From assembly GCF_003403295.1 (NCBI RefSeq), contig NZ_QUWV01000013.1:1-60835 (forward strand): a stretch of 60,835 bases of DNA, written 5' to 3'. The first letter of the stretch is position 1, and each line of letters begins with the position of its first letter. Of the stretch, positions 21,180-41,632 are shown one piece after another. The DNA is from Komagataeibacter melaceti. GTDB taxonomy: Bacteria; Pseudomonadota; Alphaproteobacteria; Acetobacterales; Acetobacteraceae. The notes beneath the pieces were generated by a model. It searched no databases. It was not told the origin of the DNA and saw only the letters and a program-made list of their open reading frames with translations. The translations under genes and the position numbers were made by a program.

Positions 21180-22775
21180 TCATGCGTTCCCGCGTATGAA
21201 GTCACTGGCCCGTTCAGCTATCATCACTGTTGGTGCGTTTGTATTGGAACCAATGATGGACGGCATGACCGAACTGTCACAGATACGGATACCGTCCAGC
21301 CCATGAATACGTAATTCCGGGTCAACAACGGACATTGCATCCCGCCCCATCTTGCAGGTGCACGTCGGATGATACGATGTCCGGCCATGCTCACGTGCAT
21401 AATTCTGAAACGCTTCCGGTGTTACTGTGTTTGCATCAAAATATCCTATTTTCCGAATATATTTACGCAGAGAGTGCTGGTTGAATATTTCAAGGCTGAT
21501 TTTGATACCTTCACACGAAATACGCAGGTCATCCGGGTCCGCCAGAAAATTCGGGTCCACGACTGGCGCATCCGCGGGGTTGGCAGATTGCAGTTTTACC
21601 GTGCCGCGTGACTTCGGGCGCAGGGTGTAGCTGTTTAACGTAATGCCCGATACCCCTTTGGGCACGGAACATACCCCGGCCTCAGCCCCGGCCCCTGCAA
21701 GGAAATGGAACTGCAGGTCAGGGCAGGGGGCATTGCGGTCCGCGTACCAGAATGCCCCGGCCTCGACCACATTGGATGTCACGGGGCCGGAATTGAACAT
21801 GGCATATTGCAGACCGGCCCAGAACATCCAGTGCATCTGGTTGTATTTGTTGAAACTTTCATGGTTTTTCAGTTCAGCGACAATGTCGATGCCGAAGTGA
21901 TCCTGCAAGTTCTCCCCAACCCCCGGCAGGTCCTGCACCACGCGGATGTCATGCTGCCGCAGGTGGGCGGCGGGGCCTACGCCCGAGAGCATCAGCAGCT
22001 TGGGCGTGCCAATCGCACCGGATGTCACCACTACTTCCTGATCCGCCTGCACGACATGCTGCGTGCCGCGCGCGATATACTCAACGCCCGTCGCCCGGTT
22101 GCCCGTGAACAGGATGCGCAGCACGCAGGCATTGGTAATGACATGCAGGTTGCGGCGTTTCAGGGCTGGACGCAGGTAACCACTCACTGTGGAGCAGCGG
22201 CGGTTATTGCGGATGGTCATCTGGTAAATGCCCGCCCCCTCCTGCGTGGGGCCGTTGAAATCCGGGTTGTAGGGCATGCCCATTTCCTGGCAGCTCTGCA
22301 CAAAGGCGCGCGTGACCGGGTTGGGCGTTGGCAGGTTCGACACACCAAGCGGGCCATCCGTGCCATGCCACGCCCCGGCCAGAAAGGTATTGCCCTCGGA
22401 GCGCAGCAGGTATTTCTGGATGTCCCTGAACCCCCAGCCTTCCGCCCCTTCTTCCACCCAGCGGTCATAATCGGAGGGGTGGCCACGGGTATAGACCTCG
22501 GCGTTGATTGATGAACCGCCGCCCAGAACCCTGGCCTGCACATACGGGATCTGCCGGTTGTTGGCATATTTCTGCGGCGCGGTGGTCAGGCCCCATGTCA
22601 GCGGGCCGGTCGTCATCTTGGCAAAGCCGATGGGCATGTGAATGAGGGGGTTGGTATCACGCCCGCCCGCTTCAATCAGGCACACCCGCGCGCTGGGGTT
22701 TTCCGACAGGTGCGCGGCGAGTACACATCCGGCCGAGCCCCCGCCAACAATGATATAGTCGAAACCCTGGGTCAT
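21180..22775 (-). CDS. GMC-family FAD oxidoreductase (choline/alcohol dehydrogenase type)
   Basis: 531 aa. It oxidises a primary alcohol to an aldehyde with FAD. The N-terminal ADP-binding motif YIIVGGGSAGCVLAAHL is at about 6-22, ARVLGGGSSINAEVYTRG is GMC signature 1 and GAIGTPKLLMLSGVGP is signature 2. The C-terminal active-site His in SYHPTCTCKMG and Asn in SNTNAPT are present. It lacks a signal peptide, unlike periplasmic dehydrogenases. ATG 22775 overlaps the TGA of the upstream aldehyde dehydrogenase, so the two are coupled and probably act in sequence (alcohol to aldehyde to acid). It resembles BetA, but no choline transporter or BetI is present, so I do not assign choline. Confidence 0.87.
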   Translation of the reverse strand: MTQGFDYIIVGGGSAGCVLAAHLSENPSARVCLIEAGGRDTNPLIHMPIGFAKMTTGPLTWGLTTAPQKYANNRQIPYVQARVLGGGSSINAEVYTRGHPSDYDRWVEEGAEGWGFRDIQKYLLRSEGNTFLAGAWHGTDGPLGVSNLPTPNPVTRAFVQSCQEMGMPYNPDFNGPTQEGAGIYQMTIRNNRRCSTVSGYLRPALKRRNLHVITNACVLRILFTGNRATGVEYIARGTQHVVQADQEVVVTSGAIGTPKLLMLSGVGPAAHLRQHDIRVVQDLPGVGENLQDHFGIDIVAELKNHESFNKYNQMHWMFWAGLQYAMFNSGPVTSNVVEAGAFWYADRNAPCPDLQFHFLAGAGAEAGVCSVPKGVSGITLNSYTLRPKSRGTVKLQSANPADAPVVDPNFLADPDDLRISCEGIKISLEIFNQHSLRKYIRKIGYFDANTVTPEAFQNYAREHGRTSYHPTCTCKMGRDAMSVVDPELRIHGLDGIRICDSSVMPSIIGSNTNAPTVMIAERASDFIRGNA

Positions 22776-24271
22776 GATGCAATCCAGTGGGAACGGTCGC
22801 CTGTTTCGATATGGACGGATTTGGCCTGCGTGTATTCCTCCACACCCAGAAGGCCGGTTTCCCGCCCCCATCCGGACTGCTTGAAACCGCCGGTTGGCGT
22901 TTCCGGCCCACCCGCCATGATGGTGTTGACCCAGAAACGTCCGGCCCGCACACGCCGCGTTACGCATAGCGCCTGGTCTATGTTCTTGGACCATACCGAG
23001 GCTGCCAGCCCGTAAACGGTATCATTTGCCAGCGCGATGGCTTCATCCAGCGTATCGAAATGAAAGGATGACAGGACGGGGCCGAATATTTCCTCCCGCG
23101 CGATGGACATGGAGGGCGTGACACCAGAAAACAGGGTGGGAGCGATATAACGCCCCTTTCCACATTCCAGCGCATCACCCCCGGTGAGCACCCGCGCGCC
23201 TTCGGCCTTTCCCTTGGCAATGTAGCCAAGGATCGTTTCATTCTGGGCCGCGGTGGTGATGGCGCCCACCTGTGTCTGCGGGTCGAACGGGTCGCCCACC
23301 CGGATCTTCTTCATTTTCTCGGCAAGGATGCGCTCGAACCTGTCCGCCACCGTGCGCTCCACGATCAGGCGGCTGGAGGAAACACAGCACTGCCCCGTAT
23401 TGAAGCTTATGCCAAATGCCGCACCATCGGCAGCATCCTCCAGATTGGCGTCCGCGAATACGATGATGGGATTTTTGCCCCCCAGCTCAAGGCCAAGTTT
23501 CTTGAGGTTGCTGTCACCCGATGCATGAACGCATGAACGCCCCACGGCGGTTGACCCGGTAAAGGAGAGCATGTCCACATCACGGTGTTCCGCCAGTGCC
23601 TGCCCGATACTGCGCCCGGTTCCGGTCACGACGTTATAGACCCCGGCAGGCAGGCCCGCATCGGTAAGGATATCGGCCAGGATCAGGGTTGTGGCGCTTG
23701 TCACTTCGGCGGGTTTGACCACCAGCGTGCAGCCTGATGCCAGAATGAAAGGCACGCGCTCGCACAGGATGAGGAAAGGGAAGTTCCACGGCGTAATCAG
23801 CCCGACAACCCCGACCGGCTCACGCAGCACCATACCAAACAGGTTGTCGCCCAGGTTATTGAAGCTTTCACCATGAAGAAGGCGTGCGGCACCTGCCGCG
23901 GTTTCAAAGCACGCAATACAGTGGTCGATCTCCCCACGGGCCTGGGCGATCGGTTTGCCGTTTTCCAGTACTTCCCATGTGGCGATTTCATCGCGGCGCC
24001 TGCGGATGCCCTCGGCCGCGCGCAGCAGTACGCCCGCGCGCGCACCGCCCGGCAGGCCGGCCCAGCGGCGGTCTTCAAATGCCAGCCGGGCGGCGGCCAC
24101 GGCGTCATCTACATCCTCGGGCGTGCAGCGTGATGTGCGTGTGACCGGCAGATCATGGCTGGGGGAGTTGCGTTCAAACAGTTCCCGGCCCCTGCGCCAT
24201 GCGCCATTGATAAAGAAACCGAATTCGCGCGGGGTTTTCGGTAACGTAACCCCGTGTGTCATCTCGTGCAT
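22772..24271 (-). CDS. NAD-dependent aldehyde dehydrogenase, paired with GMC enzyme
   Basis: 499 aa. It has TPWNFPF, FTGSTAVG, the general-base Glu in LELGGKNP and the catalytic Cys in NTGQCCVSSSRL, so it should be active. The second Cys of the CC pair is common in betaine- and hydroxy-aldehyde dehydrogenases. ATG 24271 has GAGAGG 6 nt upstream; the frame stays open further upstream without homology. First gene of the two-gene operon with the GMC oxidoreductase, divergent from the acyl-CoA dehydrogenase operon. The combination suggests conversion of an alcohol to a carboxylic acid that the CoA-transferase of the island could then activate. Confidence 0.9.
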   Translation of the reverse strand: MHEMTHGVTLPKTPREFGFFINGAWRRGRELFERNSPSHDLPVTRTSRCTPEDVDDAVAAARLAFEDRRWAGLPGGARAGVLLRAAEGIRRRRDEIATWEVLENGKPIAQARGEIDHCIACFETAAGAARLLHGESFNNLGDNLFGMVLREPVGVVGLITPWNFPFLILCERVPFILASGCTLVVKPAEVTSATTLILADILTDAGLPAGVYNVVTGTGRSIGQALAEHRDVDMLSFTGSTAVGRSCVHASGDSNLKKLGLELGGKNPIIVFADANLEDAADGAAFGISFNTGQCCVSSSRLIVERTVADRFERILAEKMKKIRVGDPFDPQTQVGAITTAAQNETILGYIAKGKAEGARVLTGGDALECGKGRYIAPTLFSGVTPSMSIAREEIFGPVLSSFHFDTLDEAIALANDTVYGLAASVWSKNIDQALCVTRRVRAGRFWVNTIMAGGPETPTGGFKQSGWGRETGLLGVEEYTQAKSVHIETGDRSHWIAS

Positions 24272-24660
24272 TGACGGCCTCTCTGTTATCGTGAACCGCT
24301 CATTATGTTCATGGCGGCCATTGCTGTTGCGTGAACCGACCTGCTGCCGAAGCAGATTGAGAAATACCCGGACTCCCTGAACGTAAGGAAAAAGGAGTCG
24401 TTTCATGAAAATATTCATGTAACGTGACGGGGTATGTAATTTGTGTTCAGAAAAAATGCAGAACTATACCCGCATTATGGTTTGCAGATGTCTCTGCTTT
24501 CTTATGGATTTACATATAATGAGCAGCGCGTGCGCGACGGATGCTGCATGGTCTGGGCCATATCCATTGGTCGATGTCCTGTCTTCTTGTTCTGTGTTCC
24601 GCCGGTTCGAGCCGGTGGGACTTATTCGGGACAACATCACCTGATGCATCATCTGGGATG

Positions 24661-24672: not shown

Positions 24673-24950
24673 ACGTATGTGATAGAGGGTACAGACCACA
24701 GGGTTAATTCATATTTATGTGATCTTTAGGTATATCTAAAAAATATGGATAGCATCGGGAATCCGTCTGGCCACAATGTCGGCCCGGCTGGCGGCGACAT
24801 GCTGGCGGGAAACCGGCACTCTGTGGAAAATTCTGTAATACGGATCATCGCACGAACACTTGCATGTGATCGTTATTATTTAAAAACACAGGAAAACAAA
24901 AAATAGACGCCCGTATTTGTACTTGCCATTCAGGGGTGAAGAATGTATGT

Positions 24951-24962
24951 AACCAGTTAGTT
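24951..24962 (+). promoter_or_regulatory. Candidate TetR operator of the acyl-CoA dehydrogenase operon
   Basis: AACCAGTTAGTT with TATGT before and CATAT after. Positions 1-3 and 10-12 are complementary (AAC/GTT). It ends 24 nt before the chosen ATG 24987, where a repressor would block transcription. Near-identical elements stand at 31862 and 38595. Confidence 0.6.
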
Positions 24963-24986
24963 CATATAAGAGCAGGAATTGCCGGA

Positions 24987-26129
24987 ATGTATCTGAACGA
25001 GACACAGGAACAGGTGCGCGACACCGCGCGCGCTTTCGCCGAGGAAGTCATCCGCCCCGCCGCCGAGGCACTGGACCGCGACGAGCGCTTCCCCTCTGAA
25101 ATATACGATGAGATGGCAAAGGTCGGCCTGTTCGGAATTGGCGTTCCGGAAGAACTGGGCGGCCCCGGATTCGATACGCTGACCTATGCCGTGGTGATGG
25201 AGGAACTCTCACGCGGCTATGCCAGCGTGGCGGATCAGTGCGGTCTGGTTGAGCTGATTTCCACGCTGCTGGTCCGCCATGGCACGCCTACGCAGCAGAA
25301 GATGCTGCCCGAAGTGATCAGCATGCAGCGCAAGGTGGCGTACTGCATTACCGAGGCGGAGGCCGGGACGGATGTCTCGGGCATCCGCACAACGGCTGAA
25401 AAGGATGGGGATGGCTGGGTCCTTAATGGCGGAAAGCTGTGGATTCATAACGCTCCCATAGCTGATACCGGCTTTGTCCTCGCCCGCACGGACAGGGAGG
25501 CAGGCAATCGTGGCATGTCGATCTTTGTCGTTGATCTTCATGCCCAGGGTGTGGAGCGCGGGCCGAAGGAGCATAAGATGGGGCAGCGCGCCAGCCAGGT
25601 TGGCGGCCTTACCTTTTCCGATGTGCGCCTTGGGTCTGATGCCCTGCTGGGGCAGGCCGGGCGCGGGTTCCATATGATGATGAGCGTGCTGGACAAGGGG
25701 CGCGTCGGGATTGCAGCACTTGCGGTCGGCATTGCGCAGGCGGGGCTTGAAGCCGCCGTGGATTACGCGGCCACGCGCAAGCAGTTTGGCAGGCAGATAT
25801 CCGAATTTCAGGGCGTGCAATGGCTGCTGGCCGATATGGCGAAGGATATCGAGGCCGCGCGCCTGCTGGTCCATTCGGCCGCCGTCAAGATCGACCGTGG
25901 GCTTGACGCGACACGTTCATGTTCCATGGCCAAATGCTTTGCGGGTGACATGGCGGTTGCCCGCACGGCTGATGCGGTGCAGGTGTTTGGCGGGTCGGGC
26001 TATATTCGCGGCTTTGAGGTCGAACGCCTGTATCGCGATGCCAAGATTACGCAGATCTATGAAGGCACCAACCAGATCCAGCGCATGATCATCGCGCGTG
26101 AACTGCTGAAAAAGGGTGCCCGCGCATGA
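24987..26129 (+). CDS. Acyl-CoA dehydrogenase family protein
   Basis: 380 aa. An FAD enzyme that introduces an alpha,beta double bond into an acyl-CoA and gives its electrons to ETF. Typical blocks are YCITEAEAGTDVSGI, KLWIHNAPIADTGFVLARTD and QVFGGSGYIRGFEVERLYRD. The catalytic Glu of the short-chain group is in IYEGTNQIQR near the C-terminus. ATG 24987 has AGGA 9 nt upstream and keeps the operator outside the gene. It leads an operon whose last two genes encode its ETF partner. Because the neighbours are sugar-type enzymes and an ABC sugar importer, the substrate is probably a short, possibly hydroxylated acyl-CoA rather than a fatty acid. The next gene overlaps by ATGA. Confidence 0.92.
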   Translation: MYLNETQEQVRDTARAFAEEVIRPAAEALDRDERFPSEIYDEMAKVGLFGIGVPEELGGPGFDTLTYAVVMEELSRGYASVADQCGLVELISTLLVRHGTPTQQKMLPEVISMQRKVAYCITEAEAGTDVSGIRTTAEKDGDGWVLNGGKLWIHNAPIADTGFVLARTDREAGNRGMSIFVVDLHAQGVERGPKEHKMGQRASQVGGLTFSDVRLGSDALLGQAGRGFHMMMSVLDKGRVGIAALAVGIAQAGLEAAVDYAATRKQFGRQISEFQGVQWLLADMAKDIEAARLLVHSAAVKIDRGLDATRSCSMAKCFAGDMAVARTADAVQVFGGSGYIRGFEVERLYRDAKITQIYEGTNQIQRMIIARELLKKGARA

Positions 26130-26893
26130 GACAGGTGGCCCTTGTTACCGGGTCGTCACGCGGGATCGGCCTTGCTGCGGCGCAGGCCCTTGCGCAGGCC
26201 GGTTTCGCGGTGGCGGTCAATGGCCCGGTGGAAGACGAGGAACTGCATGCGGCAATCGGGCAGATGCAGTCCCTTGGCGCGCCGATCATGGCGGCGGCGT
26301 TTGATGTGGGTGATGTCAGCGTGCATGCGGACAGTCTGGCGCGGATAGAAGACCAGCTTGGCCCGTTGACCACGCTGGTCAATAACGCCGGTGTGGGCGT
26401 GCTCCAGCGCGGCGACCTGCTTGATGTGACGGAGGCGAGCTGGGACCGTTGCCACGCCATCAACGCCCGCGCGCTGTTTTTCCTGTCACAGGCCTTTGCC
26501 CGCCGCCTGCTCGGGCGCAGGCGTGATGCGGAACTGTTTTATTCCATTGTGAATGTTACATCGTCCAACGCCATGGCCGTGGCGGTGCAGCGGGCCGAAT
26601 ACTGTGCATCGAAAGCGGCGGCGGCCATGGTATCAAAGGCCTTTGCGGTCAGGCTCGGCCCGGAAAACATTGCCGTTTACGATGTGCAGCCCGGCCTGAT
26701 CGCAACCGACATGACCGCATCGGTCATCGGGACGTACCGCCAGCGCGCGGAAGATGGCCTGACGCTGATGCCACGCATCGGCACGCCCGAGGACATGGGC
26801 GGCATTATCGCGACCCTTGCAACCGGCAAGCTTCCCTACACGACCGGGCAGGTCATTTCGGCTGATGCCGGAATGCTTGTGCCCCGTTTCTGA
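26126..26893 (+). CDS. Short-chain dehydrogenase/reductase (SDR), 3-ketoacyl reductase-like
   Basis: 255 aa. The cofactor motif TGSSRGIG is at 8-15 and NNAGVG near 90. The catalytic Ser is in VTSSNAM and the Tyr/Lys in EYCASKAAA. The C-terminus TGQVISADAGM is the usual SDR end. It would interconvert a hydroxyl and a keto group with NAD(P)(H), perhaps on the product of the acyl-CoA dehydrogenase after hydration. The start codon overlaps the previous stop. Three residues (REA-like charged surface) aside, nothing is unusual. Substrate unknown. Confidence 0.88.
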   Translation: MRQVALVTGSSRGIGLAAAQALAQAGFAVAVNGPVEDEELHAAIGQMQSLGAPIMAAAFDVGDVSVHADSLARIEDQLGPLTTLVNNAGVGVLQRGDLLDVTEASWDRCHAINARALFFLSQAFARRLLGRRRDAELFYSIVNVTSSNAMAVAVQRAEYCASKAAAAMVSKAFAVRLGPENIAVYDVQPGLIATDMTASVIGTYRQRAEDGLTLMPRIGTPEDMGGIIATLATGKLPYTTGQVISADAGMLVPRF

Positions 26894-26901
26894 GAACTGT
26901 C

Positions 26902-28050
26902 ATGAAAATCGCACTGCCTGACCAGACCGGGCGGAAGGTGGACTACCTTCTGGCCGGAACGCCACTCCCCCCAACCGTGCTGCCGCCCGACCCGGTGCGG
27001 GTTGTCTATTCGGCGGCCCATGTCACGGCGGACCCGTTTGCCGCGACCGATCCCTCCGGGCAGGCCGCGATTGACTGGGATACGACGCTGGCCTTCCGCC
27101 GCCACCTTGCCAGCCTGGGGCTTGGCATTGCCGAGGCAATGGACACCGCACAGCGTGGCATGGGGCTGGACTGGTCCCGCTCGCTTGAACTGATCCGACG
27201 CACAAGGGCCGAACTGCCTGATGCGCTGGTGGCGAACGGTTGCGGGACCGACCAGCTTGATCCGCGTGACGTTACATCCGTCGATCAGGTCATCCGCGCC
27301 TATCTTGAACAGGCCGAGGCCATTCAGGCGGTTGGCGGGCGCATTATCCTCATGGCCAGCCGCGCGCTCGTTCAGGTGGCGAAAACGCCCGATGATTACA
27401 TCCGGGTCTATCGCACCGTGCTGGCCAGCGCGGATGCCCCCGTCATCCTGCACTGGCTGGGGGACATGTTCGACCCGGCGCTGAAGGGATACTGGGGCAC
27501 GGATGATTTCTCGGGCGCGCTGGAAACGGTGCTGTCCATCATCGGGGAAAACAGGTCGCGCATTGACGGCATCAAGATCTCCCTGCTGGACAAGGAAAAG
27601 GAGATCATCATGCGCCGCCGCCTGCCCGCGGGCGTGCGGATGTACACGGGGGATGACTTCAATTACCCCGAACTCATCGAGGGGGATGCGCAGGGGTTCA
27701 GCCATGCGCTGCTGGGCATTTTTGATCCGCTGGCCATTGCCGCGGCACAGGCGGTCAGTAGGCTGGGGGCGGGGGACGCTGCGGGGTTTCGCGCCATACT
27801 TGACCCCACCGTACCGCTGGCGCGGCTGATCTTTCGCGCGCCAACCCAGTATTACAAGACGGGTGTGGTGTTTCTTGCATGGCTGAATGGCTTTCAGGAT
27901 CATTTCATCATGCTCAACGGTGCGCAGGCCATGCGGCCGCTGCCCTATTTTACGGAGATATTCAGGCTGGCGGATGGCTGTGGCCTGTTGCGTGAGCCTG
28001 AACTGGCCGTGCACCGCATGAAATCCCTGCTGGCAGTGTACGGGGCATGA
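26902..28050 (+). CDS. DUF993 family TIM-barrel protein, dihydrodipicolinate-synthase-like
   Basis: 382 aa. It matches the DUF993 family, annotated in many genomes as dihydrodipicolinate synthase family because of a class I aldolase-type (beta/alpha)8 fold. Segments typical of such barrels are visible: VVYSAAHVTADPF near the N-terminus, VANGCGTDQLDP, APVILHWLGDMFDP and IDGIKISLLDKEKE. The Lys in GIKISLLDK is a plausible Schiff-base residue by analogy with DapA/NanA, which is my inference. No reaction is established for the family. In this operon it sits between an SDR and an isomerase-like barrel, so it is the best candidate for carbon-carbon bond cleavage. Confidence 0.82.
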   Translation: MKIALPDQTGRKVDYLLAGTPLPPTVLPPDPVRVVYSAAHVTADPFAATDPSGQAAIDWDTTLAFRRHLASLGLGIAEAMDTAQRGMGLDWSRSLELIRRTRAELPDALVANGCGTDQLDPRDVTSVDQVIRAYLEQAEAIQAVGGRIILMASRALVQVAKTPDDYIRVYRTVLASADAPVILHWLGDMFDPALKGYWGTDDFSGALETVLSIIGENRSRIDGIKISLLDKEKEIIMRRRLPAGVRMYTGDDFNYPELIEGDAQGFSHALLGIFDPLAIAAAQAVSRLGAGDAAGFRAILDPTVPLARLIFRAPTQYYKTGVVFLAWLNGFQDHFIMLNGAQAMRPLPYFTEIFRLADGCGLLREPELAVHRMKSLLAVYGA

Positions 28051-28051: not shown

Positions 28052-28909
28052 ATGCGTGATTTCCGTCATGACATTTCCGCCCTTGCGCTCAATACCGCAA
28101 CGCTTGGCCATAACGTGGCGGGGGCCGGGGCTGGCTGGTCGCCGGAACGGACCATGGATGCCTGTGTGGCGCGCGGCATTGGCGGGATCGTGCTGTGGCG
28201 CAGGGAGGTCGCGGGGCGGGAAGCGGCCGTTGCCGCCCATGCGCGTGCTGTCGGCATAAAGGTGGTCGGCCTGTGTCGCGCGCCGTTCTTGGTGGGGCCA
28301 CTTGCGCCGGTACGGCGGGACGACGTGGTGGATGATTTCCGTGCAGCGATTGACCAGACGGCGGAGCTGGGTGCTGACATCCTGACCATTGTGGTCGGTG
28401 GCGTACAGCCGGGAACGAAGGGTGTGGCCACCAGCCTTGGCCTTGTGGCGGAATATGTCGCAACGGCAGCGTCCTATGCGGCGGCGGCGGGTGTCAGGCT
28501 GGCGCTGGAACCGCTGCATCCCGTCTATGGCGGGGATCGCTCCTGCCTGACAACCACGCGCGATGCGCTGGATATGTGCGACCAGATCAATGCGGAAAAT
28601 CTGGGCGTGGCGATCGATGTCTATCATGTCTGGTGGGATACCGACCTGCCACGCCAGCTTGCGCGCGCGGGCAGGCGTATCTTCGGGTTTCATCTGTGTG
28701 ATTGGCTGGCCCATACGACGGATGTGCTGCTTGACCGTGGCATGATGGGCGATGGCGTGGCCGATATCGCCACTATTCGCGCAGCGGTGGAACAGGCCGG
28801 GTATGACGGCATGTGCGAGGTCGAAATCTTCTCCGCAACCAACTGGTGGAAGCGTGACCCGGCGGAGGTTCTGGACGTGATGGTCGAACGCTTCCGCACG
28901 GTATGCTGA
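28052..28909 (+). CDS. Sugar phosphate isomerase/epimerase-like TIM barrel
   Basis: 285 aa. AP-endonuclease-2/xylose-isomerase-like fold as in IolE, IolI and hydroxypyruvate isomerase. Potential metal ligands follow the family pattern: LALEPLHP (Glu), AIDVYHVWW (Asp/His), FHLCDW (His/Asp) and CEVEIFS (Glu). It starts 1 nt after the stop of the DUF993 gene. DUF993 and this type of barrel are often neighbours in other bacteria, so they probably act in one pathway. Isomerase, epimerase or dehydratase activity is possible. Confidence 0.85.
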   Translation: MRDFRHDISALALNTATLGHNVAGAGAGWSPERTMDACVARGIGGIVLWRREVAGREAAVAAHARAVGIKVVGLCRAPFLVGPLAPVRRDDVVDDFRAAIDQTAELGADILTIVVGGVQPGTKGVATSLGLVAEYVATAASYAAAAGVRLALEPLHPVYGGDRSCLTTTRDALDMCDQINAENLGVAIDVYHVWWDTDLPRQLARAGRRIFGFHLCDWLAHTTDVLLDRGMMGDGVADIATIRAAVEQAGYDGMCEVEIFSATNWWKRDPAEVLDVMVERFRTVC

Positions 28910-33085: not shown

Positions 33086-34051
33086 ATGAACAGGTTCCTG
33101 GCCATGGATGCCCTCAGGAAATGGGTGCCGCTTCTCGTGCTTGTGGGGTTGTGCCTGTTTTTTACGGTGGTCAATCCCAACTTCCTCTCGCTGCGCAACT
33201 TCGCCCGCATCGCCATTTCCGCCACGCCTGCGCTCATGGTTGCGGTCGGGGTGACGTTTGTCATCCTGATGGGGTCGATCGACCTGTCCATGGAGGGGAC
33301 GGTCGCGGTCTGCGCGGTGCTGTTCGCGCTTGCGCTCAACGCGCTTGGCGGTTCGATTGCCGGGTGGGGGTGGGTGGCCATTCCGGGTGCGCTGCTGGTT
33401 GGCGCGGCACTGGGGGCAGTGAATGGCATGGTGCATGTCATGCTCAGGATTCCGTCCTTCATGGCCAGCCTTTCGCTGGGGTTTGTGGGGATCGGGCTGT
33501 CACTGCTGATTACGGGCGGCAACCGGATACTGATTGATGATCCGCTTTTCCGCTCCCTGCTGACGGTGCGGGTCTGGGGCTTTCCCCTCATGGCCTATGC
33601 AGCGCTGGGCTGCCTGCTGGTGGCGTGGTTCATTCAGGACCACACCACCATGGGGCGCAATTTCTATGCCGTGGGCGGGGCGGAGGATCTGGCGCGGGCA
33701 TCCGGGCTGGATGTGGGGCGGCTGCGCATTATCGGCTTTGTGCTGGCGGGTGTGTTCTATGCGCTGGGCGCGATCTTCGCGGTGGCGCGGCTTGGCATTG
33801 CCGAGACCGAGACGGGCCGCAATTTCATGTTCATGTCCATCACCTCGGTCGTGGTGGGGGGAACCGCGCTGCGGGGCGGGGCCGGTGGCGTGTGGAACAC
33901 GCTGGTGGGCGTGCTGATCGTGAATGTCATCGGCAACGGCATGGTCGTGATCGGGCTGGCTGACTACTTCCAGGACGGTGTTCTCGGGCTTCTGGTCATT
34001 GCCGCGGTCTATCTGTCCACCAACCGGCAGTCCCTCTCATTCGTAAAGTAG
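33086..34051 (+). CDS. Sugar ABC transporter permease 1
   Basis: 321 aa. RbsC-type inner-membrane permease with about 8-10 transmembrane segments. Family features are GVTFVILMGSIDLSMEGTVA, GRNFYAVGGAEDLARASG (the cytoplasmic coupling loop) and GGTALRGGAGGVWNTLVG. It pairs with a second, non-identical permease three genes on, so the channel is probably a heterodimer, whereas many ribose-type systems use one permease twice. Confidence 0.92.
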   Translation: MNRFLAMDALRKWVPLLVLVGLCLFFTVVNPNFLSLRNFARIAISATPALMVAVGVTFVILMGSIDLSMEGTVAVCAVLFALALNALGGSIAGWGWVAIPGALLVGAALGAVNGMVHVMLRIPSFMASLSLGFVGIGLSLLITGGNRILIDDPLFRSLLTVRVWGFPLMAYAALGCLLVAWFIQDHTTMGRNFYAVGGAEDLARASGLDVGRLRIIGFVLAGVFYALGAIFAVARLGIAETETGRNFMFMSITSVVVGGTALRGGAGGVWNTLVGVLIVNVIGNGMVVIGLADYFQDGVLGLLVIAAVYLSTNRQSLSFVK

Positions 34052-34057: not shown

Positions 34058-35563
34058 ATGTTCGAGCTGAAGAATGTCGAAAAGCGCTATATGGGCGTGC
34101 ATGTGCTCAAGGGCGTGGATTTCCGTATTGATGATGGGGAGATCATCGGCCTGGTGGGGGAAAACGGCGCGGGCAAGTCCACCCTGATGAAGGTGATGTA
34201 CGGCGCGGTCCAGCATGATGCCGGGAGCGTGCTGGTGGATGGCGCGGCCGTGAATTTCCGCAGCCCGCGTGATGCCATGAAGATGGGCGTGGGCATGGTG
34301 TACCAGGAACAGTCCCTGATCCCCAACCTTACGGTCATGGAAAACATCTTTCTGGGCTTTGAAAAACCCTTTGTCCGGTTCGGCGCGATCAGGTGGAAGA
34401 AGATGGCGCAGGCCGCGCGCAGGCAACTGGCCAAGGTGAAGCTGGACATTGACCCGGCCACCATTACATCGCACCTGACCTTCGCCCAGCGCCAGCTTGT
34501 GGAACTGGCCAAGGTCCTCGCGCTTGAAGAACGGGTGGAGGGCAGGCTTGTCATCCTGCTGGATGAGCCGACATCCGTCCTGTCGCGTGATGAGATCGAC
34601 CTGCTGTTCAGCGTGGTGCGGGCGCTGCGCAGGCGGGCTTCGTTCATATTCGTCTCCCATCGGCTGGATGAAATCATTGACCTGTCCGACCGCATCTATG
34701 TGCTCAAGGACGGGTCGGTCGTGGATGTCCTTGACGCAAGGCACGCCGATATCGGCACCATCCAGAAGAAAATGGTCGGTCGCGACATCAACACCGAATA
34801 TTACCGAGAGGACAGGCAGGCCCCGTATGATGAGGACAAGGTCCTGCTGGAACTCGACCATGTCAGGATTGCCGGGCGCGGTAACGATGTTTCCCTCAGG
34901 CTCCATGCGGGTGAGGTGCTTGCCCTTGTCGGGGTGGAGGGATCAGGCCGGGAGCCGATCCTGCGCACGATATTCGGCATGCTGAAACCCGAAAAGGGCA
35001 CGCTGCGCATACGTGGCGAGCCGATGCGCGCCTTCAGCCCCGCGCGCAGTGTCGCCCATGGCGTGGGCTACGTGCCCCGGGAGCGCAAGGTCGAGGGGAT
35101 CGCGAGCGGCATGAACGTGTTTGAGAACATGACCCTGTCGCAGATGCGGAACTATTCAAGGGGTGGTGTTCTCGATATCGGGGCCGAACGGGCGCTGGCG
35201 CGTGAATGGATCGGGAAGCTCTCCATCAAGGTGCCATCCGAATACGCGGATTGCGGCAACCTGTCAGGGGGCAACCAGCAGAAGGTCGTGCTGGCGAAAT
35301 GGCGTAGCGGCGGCTCGGAAATCATTCTGCTCGACCACCCCACGCGTGGCCTCGACATCGGGGCGAAGGTGGATGTGTACGGCATGATCCGTGACATGTC
35401 CGCCGCGGGCGTGGGGATCATCCTGGTCGCGGATACGCTGGAAGAGGCCATTGGCCTCAGTCACACCATTGCTGTCATAAAAGACGGGGAAATCAGGAAA
35501 TGGTTCAACTGTCAGCCGGGCGCAAAGCCGTCCCTTTACGATCTCATCCAGCACATGGTGTGA
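34058..35563 (+). CDS. Sugar ABC transporter ATPase, two fused nucleotide-binding domains
   Basis: 501 aa. The N-terminal domain has Walker A GENGAGKST (about 39-47) and Walker B with catalytic Glu in ILLDEPTSVLS, but its signature motif is degenerate (LTFAQRQ where LSxGxQ is expected). The C-terminal domain has an intact signature (NLSGGNQQKVVLAKW), a degenerate Walker A (GVEGSGREP) and LLDHPTRGLD, with His in place of the usual catalytic Glu. One complete composite ATP site can therefore form (Walker A/B of domain 1 with the signature of domain 2). The asymmetry goes beyond that of the classical ribose-type ATPase. The stop overlaps the GTG start of permease 2. Confidence 0.92.
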   Translation: MFELKNVEKRYMGVHVLKGVDFRIDDGEIIGLVGENGAGKSTLMKVMYGAVQHDAGSVLVDGAAVNFRSPRDAMKMGVGMVYQEQSLIPNLTVMENIFLGFEKPFVRFGAIRWKKMAQAARRQLAKVKLDIDPATITSHLTFAQRQLVELAKVLALEERVEGRLVILLDEPTSVLSRDEIDLLFSVVRALRRRASFIFVSHRLDEIIDLSDRIYVLKDGSVVDVLDARHADIGTIQKKMVGRDINTEYYREDRQAPYDEDKVLLELDHVRIAGRGNDVSLRLHAGEVLALVGVEGSGREPILRTIFGMLKPEKGTLRIRGEPMRAFSPARSVAHGVGYVPRERKVEGIASGMNVFENMTLSQMRNYSRGGVLDIGAERALAREWIGKLSIKVPSEYADCGNLSGGNQQKVVLAKWRSGGSEIILLDHPTRGLDIGAKVDVYGMIRDMSAAGVGIILVADTLEEAIGLSHTIAVIKDGEIRKWFNCQPGAKPSLYDLIQHMV

Positions 35564-36516
35564 GTGGCGATCTGACCCTGACCGAACGGATGCGGCGTCA
35601 TTTCCCGTGGATCACGCTGGTCAGCGTGCTGCTGGTGGTGGGGATGAAGGACATCAATTTCCTTGCCCCGGAAAATCTGGTCAATCTGGCGTCCGATTTC
35701 GTGCCGCTGCTCATCATGGCCGTGGGCATGACCTTTGTCATCTATATTGGCGGCATAGACCTGTCTTCCCAGTCCATCGCCAATATGGCGACCGTGCTGG
35801 CCACCATTTCCCTGCCGGCTCTTGGTGTCGGCGCGGGACTGCTGGTGATCGTGGCGGGCCTTGTGGCCGGCGCGGTGTCGGGCGTGGTGACGACGCGGCT
35901 GAAGGTGCCTTCCTTCATTTCCACGCTGGCCGTGGGCGGGATCGCACTATCTGTAGGGCAGTATGCATCGGGCCAGCAGGCGCTGCATATGGACATGGCG
36001 CAGCGGCTGCATGCCTTTGGCTGGCTGGTGGGGCAGACGGCGGGCATTCCGCATGCCCTTGTGCTGGCGCTTCTGATCGTCGCAGCCGCGTGGTTCATCC
36101 AGGTACGGATGGTGCCGGGGCGGACATTCAAGGCGATTGGCGCGGCCGAGCCTGCCGTTATTGCCTCGGGCATCCGTGCGGAGCGGTACAGGGTTCTTGC
36201 CTTTGCACTGTCCGGCATGTTCGCGGCTCTTGCGGGGCTGGTGTTTTCGGTCCGGCTGTCCGGCGGTTCCCCCACATTGGCGGAGGGGTTCCTGCTGCCC
36301 GCCATCGTGGCCGTTCTTGTGGGCGGCACGCCACTGACCGGCGGCGTGGGCGGTGTGCTGAATACCCTGATCGGGACCATGATCGTCGCAGTGGTGCGCG
36401 CCAGCATGATCTATTTCAGTATTCCGGCAACCGGCCAGCAGATTTTCTTCGGCGTGGTCCTGATCATCGCAATCGCGACAACAATAGACCGCTCAAAAAT
36501 GCGGATCGTAAAATAA
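35560..36516 (+). CDS. Sugar ABC transporter permease 2
   Basis: 318 aa with GTG 35560 as start, overlapping the ATPase stop (GTGA); an ATG at 35590 is an alternative. RbsC-type permease with GMTFVIYIGGIDLSSQSIAN, GRTFKAIGAAEPAVIASGIR and GGTPLTGGVGGVLNTLIG, and about 8-10 membrane segments. It is clearly diverged from permease 1, so this is not a recent duplication. Confidence 0.9.
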   Translation: MSGDLTLTERMRRHFPWITLVSVLLVVGMKDINFLAPENLVNLASDFVPLLIMAVGMTFVIYIGGIDLSSQSIANMATVLATISLPALGVGAGLLVIVAGLVAGAVSGVVTTRLKVPSFISTLAVGGIALSVGQYASGQQALHMDMAQRLHAFGWLVGQTAGIPHALVLALLIVAAAWFIQVRMVPGRTFKAIGAAEPAVIASGIRAERYRVLAFALSGMFAALAGLVFSVRLSGGSPTLAEGFLLPAIVAVLVGGTPLTGGVGGVLNTLIGTMIVAVVRASMIYFSIPATGQQIFFGVVLIIAIATTIDRSKMRIVK

Positions 36517-36529
36517 TGGGAGAGGCATA

Positions 36530-37564
36530 ATGGAAACCATGCAGGCCGCCGTGCTGGTCGCCCCCGGCCATTTCGAGGTCAGGGACGTGCCCATACCCGA
36601 AACCGGGCCTGATGACGTGCTGGTAAAGGTGGAGCGCTGCGGAATCTGCGGCACCGATGTCCATATATTCCAGGGGCATTACGTGGCGGACAGGCTGCCG
36701 CTCATCCCGGGGCATGAGTTCAGCGGAACGCTGGCGCGTCTGGGCGCGCGGGTTACGGGGCTGCAGGTGGGGCAGAGGGTGGTGGCGGACATCAATGTCG
36801 GCTGTGGCCACTGTTACTTCTGCCGCCGCAACGAGATCCTGAACTGTAGCGAGGTCAGCCAGATCGGCATCCATCGTGATGGCGGTTTTGCCCAGTATGT
36901 CCGTGTTCCCGCCCGGCAGATCATTCCTGCCCCGCAGGATACGGCAGCCGAGGTGCTGGCCCTGACCGAACCCGTGGCCTGCGTGGTCCGTGCGGCGCGC
37001 AAGGCGGGGGCCACCTTTGGCCAGTCCGTGGTGGTGCTGGGGGCAGGGCCGGTCGGTAACCTGCACATCCAGATGATGCGGCTGATCGGGGCGGCGCCGG
37101 TCATTGCCGTTGAACTCTCCCCCGAACGCGCGGACCTTGCGGCACGGGCGGGGGCGGATGTCGTCATTACCGATCCGGCGCAGATGACGGATGTCGTGAA
37201 AATGCATACGGGTGGCCGGGGCGCGGATATCGTGATTGAAAGCATCGGTTCACCCGCGCTGTACGCCCGCGCGTTTGACCTGATCCGGCCCGGTGGCCAT
37301 GTCGCGGCCTTTGGTATTACCGGCCCCGATGACACTGTCCCGCTGAAGATACTGGACATGATCCTTAAGGAAAATTCGATAAAGGGGTCGGTGGCCGGGA
37401 TGGGTCAGGACATGCATGACGCCCTGACCCTGCTGACACATGGCCGTTTTCAGGTGGACGCCTTTACACGCGCCATTGTACCGCTTGAGCGGATACAGCA
37501 GGCATTTGATACGTTGAAAGACAGACCTGAAATCCTGAAAGTCCAGATCGCGCCGCCTGCCTGA
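36530..37564 (+). CDS. Zinc-dependent alcohol/polyol dehydrogenase (MDR family)
   Basis: 344 aa. Catalytic zinc ligands: C37 (RCGICGTD), H62 and E63 (GHEFSG). The structural zinc lobe has four Cys (GCGHCYFCRRNEILNC). The NAD motif is VVLGAGPVGN at about 165. The overall sequence is like sorbitol/threonine dehydrogenases. GGAGAGG precedes the ATG and only 13 nt separate it from the permease gene, so it belongs to the transport operon and probably acts on the imported compound or its first product. Confidence 0.92.
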   Translation: METMQAAVLVAPGHFEVRDVPIPETGPDDVLVKVERCGICGTDVHIFQGHYVADRLPLIPGHEFSGTLARLGARVTGLQVGQRVVADINVGCGHCYFCRRNEILNCSEVSQIGIHRDGGFAQYVRVPARQIIPAPQDTAAEVLALTEPVACVVRAARKAGATFGQSVVVLGAGPVGNLHIQMMRLIGAAPVIAVELSPERADLAARAGADVVITDPAQMTDVVKMHTGGRGADIVIESIGSPALYARAFDLIRPGGHVAAFGITGPDDTVPLKILDMILKENSIKGSVAGMGQDMHDALTLLTHGRFQVDAFTRAIVPLERIQQAFDTLKDRPEILKVQIAPPA

Positions 37565-37757: not shown

Positions 37758-38450
37758 ATGCCAAAAGTGTCGAACACCACCAGACAGGCAGCGGCACAGG
37801 GCAGGAAGGCATCCGGCAGAAAACCCGTCGTGACGCATGCGCGCGATGCGGAGGCCACGCAGCGCCGCATCCTGCAGGCTGCCAGGCAGGAATTCGCCAT
37901 GAACGGACTGGCTGGCGCGCGTGTTGATATCATAGCCGAAAAGGCCGAAGCCAATAAGCGCATGATCTACCATTATTTCGGTAGCAAGGAAGCACTGTTC
38001 GAACGTGTGCTGGAAGATGCCTATACGGATATATGCGTGGCCGAGCAGTCACTCAGGCTGAACCATCTGGACCCGAAAACAGCACTTGAAACGCTGGTCA
38101 GGTTCACATGGCAGTATTATCTGGACAATCCTGATTTCCTGACTTTGGTCAATAACGAGAACCTGCAGAAAGCCGTGCATCTCCACGGTTCCGAAGTCCT
38201 GCCCGTCATCAGCCGGAACCGGCTGGACATGATGGAGACCCTGCTGGCGCGCGGGGAAAAGGCGGGTGTGTTCCGGCCCGGCATTGACGCCATGCAACTG
38301 AACATAACGATTGCGGCCATCGGGTATTATTACATCACAAACCGTTTTACCGGCTCCATCATCTTTGAATGTGACTTCATGGAGCCCGAAATGCTGCGCA
38401 GGCGGCTTGAGTTCAATATTGAAACGGTTGTCAGAACGGTCTGTAAATAA
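37758..38450 (+). CDS. TetR family regulator, probable controller of the catabolic island
   Basis: 230 aa. A basic 30-residue N-terminal tail precedes the TetR HTH domain (about 33-80: RRILQAARQEFAMNGL, KAEANKRMIYHYFGSKEALF). The C-terminal ligand domain resembles the group with a TetR_C HrtR/RutR-like architecture (YLDNPDFLTLVNNENL). AAGGAG lies just before the ATG. It is the only regulator inside the island, lies directly upstream of the CoA-transferase gene and its palindrome, and the same 12-bp element occurs before other island operons. Members of such clusters often sense an acyl-CoA; the ligand here is unknown. Confidence 0.9.
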   Translation: MPKVSNTTRQAAAQGRKASGRKPVVTHARDAEATQRRILQAARQEFAMNGLAGARVDIIAEKAEANKRMIYHYFGSKEALFERVLEDAYTDICVAEQSLRLNHLDPKTALETLVRFTWQYYLDNPDFLTLVNNENLQKAVHLHGSEVLPVISRNRLDMMETLLARGEKAGVFRPGIDAMQLNITIAAIGYYYITNRFTGSIIFECDFMEPEMLRRRLEFNIETVVRTVCK

Positions 38451-38612: not shown

Positions 38613-38629
38613 GGTGAAAGAGGTTCGGT

Positions 38630-40219
38630 ATGTCAAAAACAAGAAGCGCTGCCGCCGCCGCCGCGTTAATCGGGGATAATGCCGTCGTTGCCGTGAATTC
38701 CTCCAGCGGGCTGTGCTGCCCCGATGCGGTTCTGGCCGCCATTGGCGAGCGGTTCCGCACGGAAGGCGCGCCCCGCAATATCACGACAATCCACCCCATC
38801 GCCGCGGGCGACATGTTCGGGACCCGGGGGGTGGACCACCTTGCGCAACCGGGTCTGATTTCCCGTATTATCGGCGGGTCCTACCCTTCCGGCCCGTCAT
38901 CGGCCGAGCCGCCGCTGATCCGCCAGATGCTGGGGCGTAATGAGATCGCGGCCTATAACGTGCCCAGCGGCATCATATTCGACATCCTGCGCGAAGGGGC
39001 GGCAATGCGCCCCGGCGTGCTGACAAAGGTGGGGCTGGATACATTTGTCGATCCTGCGCACGAAGGCTGCGCCATGAATGACGCCGCGCGTGAGAAACCG
39101 CTTGTCAGCCGGGTGGAATTCCAGGGCGAGGACTGGCTGTATTTTCCCGCCATCCAGCCCGATGTGGCCATTATCCGCGCCAGCACCGCCGATGAGCGCG
39201 GCAACCTGACATTCGAGCACGAAGGCGCCTATCTTGGTGCCATGGAACTGGCGCTGGCCGCCCATAACAGTGGCGGTATCGTGATTGCACAGGTCAAATA
39301 CGTAGCCCAGTCCGGCACACTGCGCCCTCATGACGTGCGTGTGCCGGGTATTCTGGTGGATTATGTGGTTGAAGCCCCCAACCAGCTACAGACCACGGCC
39401 ACCCCGTACGACCCCGCCATTTCGGGTGAGGTGTTCCGTCCGATCGACAGTTTTACGCTGCCGCCGTTTGATGCGGCCAAGGTCATGGCGCGGCGCGTGG
39501 CGCGCGAACTCAGGCCGGGATGGGCGGTGAACATAGGCTTTGGCATATCGGCCAATGTACCGCGTATCCTGCTGGAGGAAGGCCGCCATGGCGAGGTGAC
39601 ATGGGTGATCGAGCAGGGGGCTGTTGGCGGGATTCCGCTGCTTGATTTCAAATTCGGCTGTTCATCCAACGCCGAAGCCTTTGTCGCATCGCCCCACCAG
39701 TTCACCTATTTTCAGGCAGGCGGGTTTGATGTGTCGCTTCTCTCCTTCCTCCAGATCGCGGGCAACGGGTCGGTGAATGTCTCGAAACTGTCCGCGCGGC
39801 CGCATGTAACGGCGGGGTCGGGTGGGTTTGTCGATATTACGTCGCGTGCGCGCAGGATCGTCTTTTCGGGTTATTTCAACGCAGGCGCGAAATTCGACAT
39901 CGTGGATGGTCGGCTGGTGATCGAGCGCGAGGGGCGGATTCCCAAGATCGTGGACGAGCTTGAACAGATTTCCTTCTCCGGCCCGCGCGCGGTCGCGCAG
40001 GGGCAGGAGGTGCTGTATGTGACGGAGCGCTGCGTCATGCAACTGACCCCGGACGGGCTGATGGTGACGGAAATCGCACCGGGCATTGACCTGCAGACGC
40101 AGGTGCTCGATCAGGCGCAGGCGAGCCTTCTGGTCTCGCCCACGCTGCGCCTGATGGATGCGGCCCTGTTCCAGCCCGATGGTAAAATCCCCACCCACGG
40201 CTCCCGCGTCGCGGCGTGA
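38630..40219 (+). CDS. Acyl-CoA:acid CoA-transferase (YdiF/3-oxoacid type, fused subunits)
   Basis: 529 aa. It transfers CoA between a donor acyl-CoA and a carboxylic acid. Both halves (alpha-like about 1-280, beta-like from about 285) are fused as in YdiF. The beta-half active-site Glu is in TWVIEQGAVGG; GISANVPRIL and PHVTAGSGGFVDITSRAR are further family motifs. The size is typical for the family (about 520-530 aa). AAAGAGG is 6 nt upstream of the ATG. In the island it would activate the acid formed by the aldehyde dehydrogenase so that the acyl-CoA dehydrogenase can act, which is an inference. Confidence 0.9.
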   Translation: MSKTRSAAAAAALIGDNAVVAVNSSSGLCCPDAVLAAIGERFRTEGAPRNITTIHPIAAGDMFGTRGVDHLAQPGLISRIIGGSYPSGPSSAEPPLIRQMLGRNEIAAYNVPSGIIFDILREGAAMRPGVLTKVGLDTFVDPAHEGCAMNDAAREKPLVSRVEFQGEDWLYFPAIQPDVAIIRASTADERGNLTFEHEGAYLGAMELALAAHNSGGIVIAQVKYVAQSGTLRPHDVRVPGILVDYVVEAPNQLQTTATPYDPAISGEVFRPIDSFTLPPFDAAKVMARRVARELRPGWAVNIGFGISANVPRILLEEGRHGEVTWVIEQGAVGGIPLLDFKFGCSSNAEAFVASPHQFTYFQAGGFDVSLLSFLQIAGNGSVNVSKLSARPHVTAGSGGFVDITSRARRIVFSGYFNAGAKFDIVDGRLVIEREGRIPKIVDELEQISFSGPRAVAQGQEVLYVTERCVMQLTPDGLMVTEIAPGIDLQTQVLDQAQASLLVSPTLRLMDAALFQPDGKIPTHGSRVAA

Positions 40220-40233
40220 GGAATGGCACCTGT

Positions 40234-40259: not shown

Positions 40260-40276
40260 CGGATGCTTTGGCCGTG

Positions 40277-41632
40277 TCAGTCGGTCAGCCGCTGGATGCG
40301 ACGGGCCTCGTGCATATGGGCGCGCAGGACCTCGTTCAGGCCGGACAGGCGGGGCACGCCATCTTCCACCAGGATTTTCCCGTTGACGATGGTCGTGCCC
40401 GCTACGGCGGGCGCGCAGCGCAGCCACGCCTCCACCGGGTCGGTCAGCGCACCGGCCAGCGCAACCTCCGACATTTTCCAGATCACCAGATCCGCGCAGG
40501 CACCCACGCGCAGGTGGCCCAGTTCATCTTCGCGGCCCAGACAGGCGGCGCCGCCCCGTGTCGCCATGTCCAGCGCATCGCGCGCGGACATGGAATGCGG
40601 GCCGTTCCTGAAGCGCCCAAGTAGCAGCGCCATGCGGGTTTCCAGCCACATGGAGGCATGATCGGTCGAGGCCGAACCATCACACCCCAGCCCCACGCGC
40701 ATGCCACGGGCGCGCAGGTTCATCGCATCCGCCGCGCCGCCGCCAATCATCATGTTGGAACACGGGCATTGCGCGGTACATACGCCCGCATGGGCCAGAC
40801 GGTCGATTTCACTGCTGGAGGGATAGATGTAATGGGCCACCCATGACCGGGGTGAGGCCCAGCCCACCCGCTCGAAATACTCGGTCGGGGTGCAGCCGTA
40901 CACCTCGGCGCAGTAGGTGTCTTCCTCGGGGTCTTCCGCAAGGTGGGTGTGCAGGCGCAGGTCATGCCTGTCGGCCATGGCGGCGGATTCACGCATGATC
41001 CGTTCGGATACGCTGAACAGCGAGCACGGGGCCAGCGCCACACGGTCCATGGCACCGGGGGCGGGGTCGTGAAATTTGGTGACCAGCCGTTCGCTATCGG
41101 CCAGGATCGTATCCTCATCCTGTACGACGGAGGCGGGCGGCAGGCCCCCATCCTCGACCGAGCGGGTCATGGACCCACGCGTGGCATGGAAACGGAAGCC
41201 GATTTCATGCGCGGAGCGGAACTGTGCATCAATCAGGTTGGGTCTGGGGTGGACATACATATGGTCCATCGAGGTCGTGCACCCGCCCATAAGCAGTTCC
41301 ACCATCGCGACAAAGGTGGAGAGATAGACGGATTCCTCATCCAGCCCGGCCCAGAGTGGGTACAGGCCCTGAAGCCATTCAAACAGCGTACCGTTGGTAA
41401 CGGGCGCGTAGGAACGGGTCAGGTTCTGGTACATGTGGTGGTGGGCATTGATTAGCCCCGGCGTGACAAGCTGGCCACGCGCGTCAATGGCCCGGCTGGC
41501 TACGGGCGGGGTCTGGCCCCCGGCGCCGGTGGAATGGACACGCCCGTCCTTTATGGCGATCCAGCCGTTGGGAATTTCGTGGCCACGGTCAATATAGATG
41601 TAGGCATCGGTAATCAGGAGATCGACGGTCAT
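40277..41632 (-). CDS. 8-oxoguanine deaminase-like amidohydrolase
   Basis: 451 aa. A member of the amidohydrolase superfamily, subtype TrzA/AtzB/8-oxoguanine deaminase, which removes an amino group from a purine-like ring with one bound metal. Metal ligands are HHH in NAHHHMYQNL, HTHLAE and the Asp in GCDGSASTDHASM. The stretch PCSNMMIGGG matches the PCSN block typical of guanine/8-oxoguanine deaminases. ATG 41632 follows AAGG/AGG, and a hairpin-forming palindrome lies 28-46 nt upstream. It converges on the CoA-transferase gene. It could recycle oxidised guanine or deaminate another N-heterocycle; its tie to the island is only positional. Confidence 0.82.
   Translation of the reverse strand: MTVDLLITDAYIYIDRGHEIPNGWIAIKDGRVHSTGAGGQTPPVASRAIDARGQLVTPGLINAHHHMYQNLTRSYAPVTNGTLFEWLQGLYPLWAGLDEESVYLSTFVAMVELLMGGCTTSMDHMYVHPRPNLIDAQFRSAHEIGFRFHATRGSMTRSVEDGGLPPASVVQDEDTILADSERLVTKFHDPAPGAMDRVALAPCSLFSVSERIMRESAAMADRHDLRLHTHLAEDPEEDTYCAEVYGCTPTEYFERVGWASPRSWVAHYIYPSSSEIDRLAHAGVCTAQCPCSNMMIGGGAADAMNLRARGMRVGLGCDGSASTDHASMWLETRMALLLGRFRNGPHSMSARDALDMATRGGAACLGREDELGHLRVGACADLVIWKMSEVALAGALTDPVEAWLRCAPAVAGTTIVNGKILVEDGVPRLSGLNEVLRAHMHEARRIQRLTD

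Follow-up and report, generated by a model that had tools for sequence, protein, structure and literature searches.

Do the sugar importer, the oxidoreductases and the acyl-CoA enzymes encoded side by side in an acetic acid bacterium belong to one catabolic route, and what would then stand in the place of thiolase? The question is raised by a gene cluster of Komagataeibacter melaceti, located on a stretch of 60,835 nucleotides (the window) that is one entire contig (NZ_QUWV01000013.1) of a genome of 3.49 Mb in 248 contigs. Gene families were assigned from the listing of open reading frames (ORFs) with Pfam and NCBIfam models, and scores are given in bits against the model cut-offs. A set of about 15 genes, found in acetic acid bacteria, rhizobia and marine bacteria, was read as a catabolic unit by which a sugar-like compound is imported, linked to CoA and cut by a DUF993 protein, a reading in which our belief and our doubt are about equal. 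More tentatively, and with doubt prevailing, it may represent a new carbon route, in which a sugar CoA ester undergoes a beta-oxidation-like desaturation before DUF993, acting as a class I aldolase that represents a new family, cuts its chain, the CoA being recycled by a transferase.

The centre of the cluster is a run of six forward-strand genes that overlap or lie at most 15 bases apart. It comprises an acyl-CoA dehydrogenase (ACAD) of the short-chain type (24936..26129; PF00441/02770/02771), a short-chain dehydrogenase/reductase (SDR) of the '3-ketoacyl-ACP reductase' PRK12745 family (26126..26893; NF009386, 337 bits, cut-off 250), the DUF993 protein (26902..28050; 588 bits), a xylose-isomerase-like TIM barrel (28052..28909) that is probably a metal-dependent isomerase or epimerase, and the beta and alpha subunits of an electron transfer flavoprotein (ETF), namely ETFB (28925..29686; PF01012, 139 bits) and ETFA (29686..30621; PF00766 and PF01012).

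Conservation was scored in two panels, the best 80 genome loci for DUF993 and a panel of 97 loci that included plasmids and family members, with Sinorhizobium meliloti counted twice (L132 and L139). A locus of the second panel was called ACAD-type when it held an ACAD at least 60% identical to that of the window (n = 45). Since the loci were picked by DUF993, the count of this gene holds by construction (L139 is a pSymA stretch guessed to hold it), and because contig ends truncate many of the loci the gene counts are lower bounds on presence. An ACAD match was found in 29 of the best 80 loci, accompanied by SDR in 29, the TIM barrel in 27, a CoA-transferase (CoAT) in 22, a GMC oxidoreductase in 19 and an aldehyde dehydrogenase (ALDH) in 16. 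The 51 loci without ACAD held the TIM barrel in 49 cases, SDR in 10 and CoAT in 9. ACAD, SDR and DUF993 were contiguous in 43 of the 45 ACAD-type loci, and the TIM barrel was also present in 43. An earlier note on this DNA had placed these genes in a single pathway; the set does recur across families, so the grouping in the window is not due to chance, and the contiguity marks it as one recurring unit. On a DUF993 tree of 128 rows, with the ACAD link scored as 46 linked, 71 unlinked and 11 not counted, the link required 8 changes against a shuffled mean of 36.4 and none of 500 shuffles was as low, a clustering that near-copies also produce.

The named orders among the 45 ACAD-type loci were Hyphomicrobiales (8), Acetobacterales (7), Rhodobacterales (6), Burkholderiales (4), Pseudomonadales (2) and Propionibacteriales (1), 17 loci being without an order. 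The gene order of the window was mostly kept in one locus of the same genus (L165) and in others of the same family (L167-L169, L171), and in the actinobacterium Enemella (L072) the ACAD was 81% identical and stood in the same setting. The best named DUF993 relatives among the best 80 loci came from Acetobacter and one member of the Rhodobacterales, with Gluconobacter close behind. Much or all of the set was carried by plasmids of Sinorhizobium, Paracoccus, Sagittula, Rhizobium and one record labelled Roseateles; those of S. meliloti, Paracoccus and Sagittula held near-complete sets, some of which end at the edge of the stretch or record. The model organism S. meliloti 1021 has the set at ~765-785 kb of pSymA, the binding-protein end lying beyond the stretch examined. 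The DUF993 core is widespread: of the genomes sampled, it was carried by 35 of 385 in the class and 78 of 299 in the family, and among the same-genus genomes listed by 2 of 7. With this patchy presence it is an accessory trait.

Some of these loci showed further peculiarities. The genes of the Roseateles record (Roseateles sp. XES5, UNVERIFIED_ORG, L138) were mostly 60-85% identical to those of the window in a Paracoccus-like layout, and its betaproteobacterial label may be wrong. Annotated ParD/RelE-type toxin-antitoxin pairs were seen in or near plasmid DUF993 stretches (L132, 7554-8160; L138, 23592-24139; L142, 359-921). The Sagittula plasmid cluster contained, between the alcohol dehydrogenase and ALDH genes (L134, 9059-9628), a hypothetical protein of 189 residues with homologues only in L063 and L074 among the 97 loci, and in Caballeronia catudaia (L090) two ACAD, two SDR and two CoAT matches surrounded a single DUF993.

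The DUF993 protein has a (beta/alpha)8 fold of the dihydrodipicolinate synthase (DHDPS) type. Its lysine K225, on strand 6 (221-227), was present in 128/128 rows and aligned to K161 of DapA, itself present in all rows of a 51-row DHDPS comparison set in which the genome's own DapA is probably in twice. The GxxGE motif was missing: DTAQR stood in place of GTTGE, with D, T, Q and R invariant in 128/128 rows and only the Thr44 position retained, and the position of DapA Tyr133 (Tyr in 45/51 DHDPS rows) was occupied by His184 in 128/128. The hhalign comparisons of DUF993 with DHDPS were significant with the deeper alignments and not with a shallow run of 41 rows against one DapA (prob 0.2%). By fold and lysine, DUF993 would thus be a member of the DHDPS/N-acetylneuraminate lyase (NAL) class I aldolase superfamily, other than DapA or NAL proper, with K225 as the putative Schiff-base lysine of a proposed C-C lyase. 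A solved relative exists, 4dnh (SMc04132 of S. meliloti, 57% identity), titled hypothetical protein. In the TIM barrel (model pLDDT 89), E153, D189, H214 and E258 were invariant in 25/25 sequences, and we take them to be metal ligands. Its closest solved chains were 3qc0/3ju2 (SMc04130, 45-47% identity) and 7vpf, followed by IolI; the titles among the first three are sugar isomerase, protein SMc04130 and putative sugar isomerase.

The earlier note had also stated that thiolase and enoyl-CoA hydratase (ECH) are absent, and that the two barrel proteins take their place. No thiolase was present in the cluster and none was found genome-wide, the two matches of the Thiolase_N profile (~26 bits, at the cut-off) being FabH (421 bits) and FabF (625 bits), both over their cut-offs. 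No ECH was present in the cluster, and no ordinary type was found in the genome, where MaoC-type hydratases were not searched. The single ECH-family match of the genome, on C64 (L157, 1432-2517), scored 339 bits with the 3-hydroxyisobutyryl-CoA hydrolase model (cut-off 274) and, judged by this family match, might encode the missing CoA-ester hydrolase of the pathway. As regards ECH, the statement therefore held for the window cluster and failed as a general trait, an ECH-family gene occurring in 23/45 ACAD-type loci, while the placement of DUF993 and the isomerase-like barrel at the thiolase step, within a CoA chemistry, was supported.

The closest solved chains to the window ACAD were CarC of caffeyl-CoA reductase (313 bits) and 5ol2, and its best named model was acryloyl-CoA reductase (375 bits, under the cut-off of 640). 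The only other ACAD-family match in the genome, at 36.6 bits, was over the Pfam cut-off and was best matched by the SfnB and DszC models, under their cut-offs. The ETF-quinone oxidoreductase (ETF-QO) of the genome was located on C179, beside another ETF pair. A third pair, on C226 (L154, L160, L161), had a distant ETF-QO-like partner, with 26% identity to a cluster ETF-QO, and this pair is possibly of the FixABC type of nitrogen fixation. The EtfB of the window carries a ten-residue loop that we take to be of the respiratory, non-bifurcating type.

The enzymes and importer named in the earlier note were all found as open frames. Upstream, on the reverse strand, a GMC flavin oxidoreductase (21180..22775; PF00732/PF05199; in 34/45 ACAD-type loci), for which the ATG at 22775 is a likelier start than the ORF start at 22994, would convert an alcohol into an aldehyde, and an ALDH (22772..24418; PF00171, 548 bits; 31/45) would convert the aldehyde into an acid. 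Downstream, all on the forward strand, are an accessory aldo/keto reductase (AKR; 30800..31843; PF00248, 157 bits; 27/45), whose closest solved chains are L-galactose dehydrogenases (best 93 bits), and an importer of the CUT2 type. The latter consists of a sugar-binding protein (SBP; 31946..33040; PF13407, 131 bits; 17/45) with a Tat-like N-terminus (RRNLLL) and 2rjo as closest solved chain (289 bits), ABC permease 1 (33086..34051; arabinose/ribose permease models, 143-144 bits), a two-domain ABC ATPase (34058..35563; AraG/XylG/RbsA models, 389-424 bits) and ABC permease 2 (35500..36516; ribose permease model, 142 bits), whose true start is probably past 35563; the scores of the last three are under the cut-offs. 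An accessory zinc alcohol dehydrogenase (zinc ADH; 36530..37564; 16/45) was best matched by the scyllo-inosose 3-dehydrogenase model (216 bits, under the cut-off of 450), and is followed by a TetR-type regulator (37758..38450; 20/45) and a single-chain, FadX-like CoAT (38630..40219; NF052271, 322 bits, under the cut-off of 750; 33/45). The motifs YEGT (ACAD), YCASK (SDR), GQCC (ALDH), YHP (GMC) and EQGAVGG (CoAT) were found in the window proteins, together with that of the AKR, and we take them to be catalytic.

The genes from SBP through ADH are at most 45 bases apart, with distances computed on an assumed permease 2 start (35578). Wider gaps separate ETFA from AKR (178 bases), AKR from SBP (102), ADH from TetR (193) and TetR from CoAT (179), and GMC/ALDH are divergent. 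An OprB-type carbohydrate porin (19224..21038, reverse strand; PF04966, 313 bits), the probable outer-membrane entry, adjoins GMC/ALDH in the window and in L053, L165, L167, L168 and L169, which makes 19224 the probable start of the unit. At the other side, an 8-oxoguanine deaminase gene (40277-41674, reverse strand; 553.5 bits, cut-off 532) is a separate gene outside the cluster and was found in 0/45 ACAD-type loci. The range first assigned to the cluster, 21180-41632, therefore held for the core genes and not for its ends, the right one entering the deaminase gene and the left one omitting the porin. Past the deaminase, the window holds a CBS-domain gene and a NuoN-type gene. Predicted promoters numbered 5, compared with 6.7 in shuffled sequence, and predicted terminators 21, compared with 12.7; neither scan was put to use.

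The composition of the set varied among loci. A compact operon, ALDH-GMC-CoAT-glycerate kinase-ACAD-SDR-DUF993-TIM-ETFB-ETFA-ETFQO, beside a divergent TetR gene, was found in Gluconobacter (L057/L058) and in L172, and no AKR, zinc ADH or ABC homologues were recognised in the stretches around it. These three components therefore look dispensable, and the compact sets suggest a minimal pathway. Extras in the ACAD-type loci were the ECH-family gene, a second AKR (19/45), glycerate kinase (14/45), MaoC (8/45), Dabb (8/45) and ETF-QO (7/45). Glycerate kinase lies beside CoAT in the congener L166; the window's genome has one MOFRL kinase, outside the window cluster. Gfo/Idh variants without CoAT or ACAD beside DUF993 were L140, L141, L146 and L149, the TIM barrel being annotated in three of the four, and GMC and ALDH-family genes were found in L141, which has no CoA genes, with similar names in L146. 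CoAT with ECH or MaoC and without ACAD was found in L143, L147 and L148. These different partners indicate that DUF993, usually with the TIM barrel, is a core taking varied oxidation steps. In addition, DUF993-TIM of a Rhodococcus plasmid (L145) is flanked at one end by annotated ACAD, CoAT, SDR and glycerate kinase genes and at the other by Gfo/Idh, an arrangement that is possibly an intermediate between the CoA-type and Gfo/Idh-type variants.

The carriers beside the set point to a sugar or sugar acid as substrate, in support of the sugar-like compound that had first been supposed. Besides the CUT2 importer, they included a sugar-porter MFS in L057 (422 bits, cut-off 238), GluP types in L055 and L064 (226 and 224 bits, cut-off 203) and D-galactonate-type MFS proteins in L061 and L088 (238 and 227 bits, under the cut-off of 395), with an OprB porin also in L061. 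Perhaps the window set acts on a neutral sugar or a sugar alcohol, and that of some relatives on a sugar acid. Besides the branched, deoxy or cyclic compounds of the earlier note, the candidates considered were carbasugars, deoxy sugars, cyclitols, apiose, 2-C-methylerythritol and glycosylglycerols. S. meliloti without pSymA grows on 69/73 carbon sources, and the accessible parts of the three reports concerned (PMC4207669, PMC4961836, PMC5929573) give no substrate for the pSymA region. SMa1344 is named once, in a symbiosis test, in the accessible part of PMC3462710.

From these data we infer the substrate class, the order of the steps, the cleavage reaction and its products as follows. The compound would pass the outer membrane by the OprB porin and be taken up by the CUT2 importer, with optional early interconversions by AKR and zinc ADH. 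GMC and ALDH would then oxidize a CH2OH group to a carboxylate, which CoAT would convert into a CoA ester. The ester would be desaturated by ACAD, with electrons passing via its own ETF to the ETF-QO of the genome, and a ketone would be formed by the SDR. At the step where beta-oxidation has thiolase, DUF993 would cleave the chain by a retro-aldol reaction through a Schiff base on Lys225. The TIM-barrel isomerase would convert one of the cleavage products, and glycerate would leave through glycerate kinase. CoAT could also reclaim CoA from the product ester, giving a cycle without hydrolysis. If this is correct, transfer and desaturation are the only thioester enzymology required.

Several points weigh against this scheme. 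The strongest chemical objection is the missing C-H pair next to the carboxylate: ACAD needs adjacent C-H at C2 and C3, which ordinary aldonates lack in the usual form, and the substrate would have to be a deoxy, branched or carbocyclic sugar, or the acyl group be derived from a fragment. Lacking GxxGE and Tyr133, DUF993 is not assured of retro-aldol activity. In L140, L141, L146 and L149 Gfo/Idh replaces CoAT and ACAD, so that perhaps only a part of the substrate passes through the CoA steps, and the ECH-family genes of 23 loci suggest a hydration or hydrolysis step that is absent from the window. The ACAD type is a minority, with an ACAD orthologue in 1/20 DUF993 stretches of the class sample. 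The distance-matrix correlation with ACAD, computed with no neutral control, was poor for AKR (r 0.44) and TetR (0.35) and moderate for GMC and ETFB (0.60). Finally, no substrate or product has been linked to any cluster gene.

The main rival explanation reverses the order: SDR (or Gfo/Idh), DUF993 and the TIM barrel would cleave the sugar first, and GMC, ALDH, CoAT and ACAD would handle a small fragment, such as a C3-C5 alcohol or aldehyde, as acyl-CoA. We regard it as unlikely, yet as deserving real weight. DUF993-TIM is the widespread core, as seen in the loci without ACAD among the best 80 (TIM 49/51, CoAT 9/51); the ACAD is closest to short-chain enzymes and, among named models, to acryloyl-CoA reductase; and the 3-hydroxyisobutyryl-CoA hydrolase-type gene of the genome could free a small hydroxyacyl-CoA. 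However, the GMC/ALDH genes of L141, where Gfo/Idh stands without CoA genes, fit an early oxidation of the substrate, and the compact sets of L057, L058 and L172, in which thiolase was not searched, showed no recognisable ECH homologue.

That two adjacent pathways, one an operon for sugar import and oxidation and the other an acyl-CoA operon, lie together by chance or through shared regulation appears improbable. The several transcription units marked by the four wider gaps and the divergent GMC/ALDH would be expected in this case, as would the compact sets, complete for the CoA enzymes, around which importer, AKR and zinc ADH were not recognised. But SBP homologues accompany the ACAD set in their 17 loci across acetic acid bacteria, rhizobia, Rhodobacterales, Variovorax and Pseudomonas, and L055, L057, L061 and L064, which have no ABC importer, have another sugar-type carrier beside the set.

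It is very improbable that the set is a version of the acyl-CoA deoxyribonate pathway known from Klebsiella michiganensis, yielding glyceryl-CoA and glycerate. A FabG-like SDR, a single-chain CoAT and, in relatives of the window cluster, glycerate kinase are common to both, as far as the accessible part of PMC6365646 goes. In that source the route runs by CoA-synthetase, thiolase and lactonase and has no need of ACAD or DUF993, and deoxyribose is not among the 73 good-growth carbon sources of S. meliloti, a carrier of the set, in the accessible part of PMC4207669. The deoxyribose/deoxyribonate route is thus a possible relative that is not supported, as the search of the window's genome yielded no thiolase. 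Ordinary fatty-acid or choline oxidation, named at the outset as the outcome that would overturn the supposed pathway and recommended by family names only (ACAD, ETF, FadX-like CoAT, BetA/BetB-like GMC and ALDH), is barely credible and was rejected on the genome content (FabH and FabF as the only Thiolase_N matches, a hydrolase-type gene and no ordinary ECH among the ECH-family matches, an SfnB/DszC-like second ACAD), on the scores of GMC against the BetA cut-off (476 vs 732 bits) and ALDH against that of BetB (448 vs 669 bits), and on the repeated association with DUF993, SDR and sugar carriers.

If the more tentative reading of a new carbon route holds, bacteria without beta-oxidation, such as the acetic acid bacterium of the window, could respire an otherwise unused sugar. 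An assigned role for the set would reveal acyl-CoA chemistry at work on sugars and give a function to DUF993, whose solved structure (4dnh) is unexplained, and to the isomerase beside it (3qc0). The compact Gluconobacter-type set of 11 genes and a divergent TetR gene offers a direct test that, judging by the window's genome, beta-oxidation would not blur.

No description of DUF993 or of the gene set was found in searches of the open-access literature, in agreement with the initial remark that no established pathway with this set was known to its author; the new families in PMC9007349, in its accessible part, are others. The nearest described pathway found was that of K. michiganensis M5al (PMC6365646). 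As is proposed for the window set and its relatives, according to the part of the article available, a sugar acid becomes a CoA ester, a FabG-like SDR acts, and CoAT and glycerate kinase channel glycerate; there, however, a thiolase cleaves 3-ketodeoxyribonyl-CoA. That part names no ACAD/ETF, DUF993 or TIM isomerase, and the terms 'acyl-CoA dehydrogenase' and 'dihydrodipicolinate' are absent from the text of the article. The deoxyribonate route of Pseudomonas simiae has a beta-keto acid cleavage enzyme, whereas none is among the proteins of the window's cluster. SMc04132 and SMc04130 are not pSymA copies of the ACAD-type set, their chromosomal neighbourhood being deduced from tag numbers only. 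DUF993 is ~90 residues longer than the members of the DHDPS/NAL superfamily, and the window ACAD, of the same sequence family as CarC and the short-chain ACADs, differs from them in being contiguous with SDR and DUF993, near sugar carriers. The set was filed as a variant of CoA-linked sugar-acid catabolism; that its cleavage is of a new kind is less likely than not.

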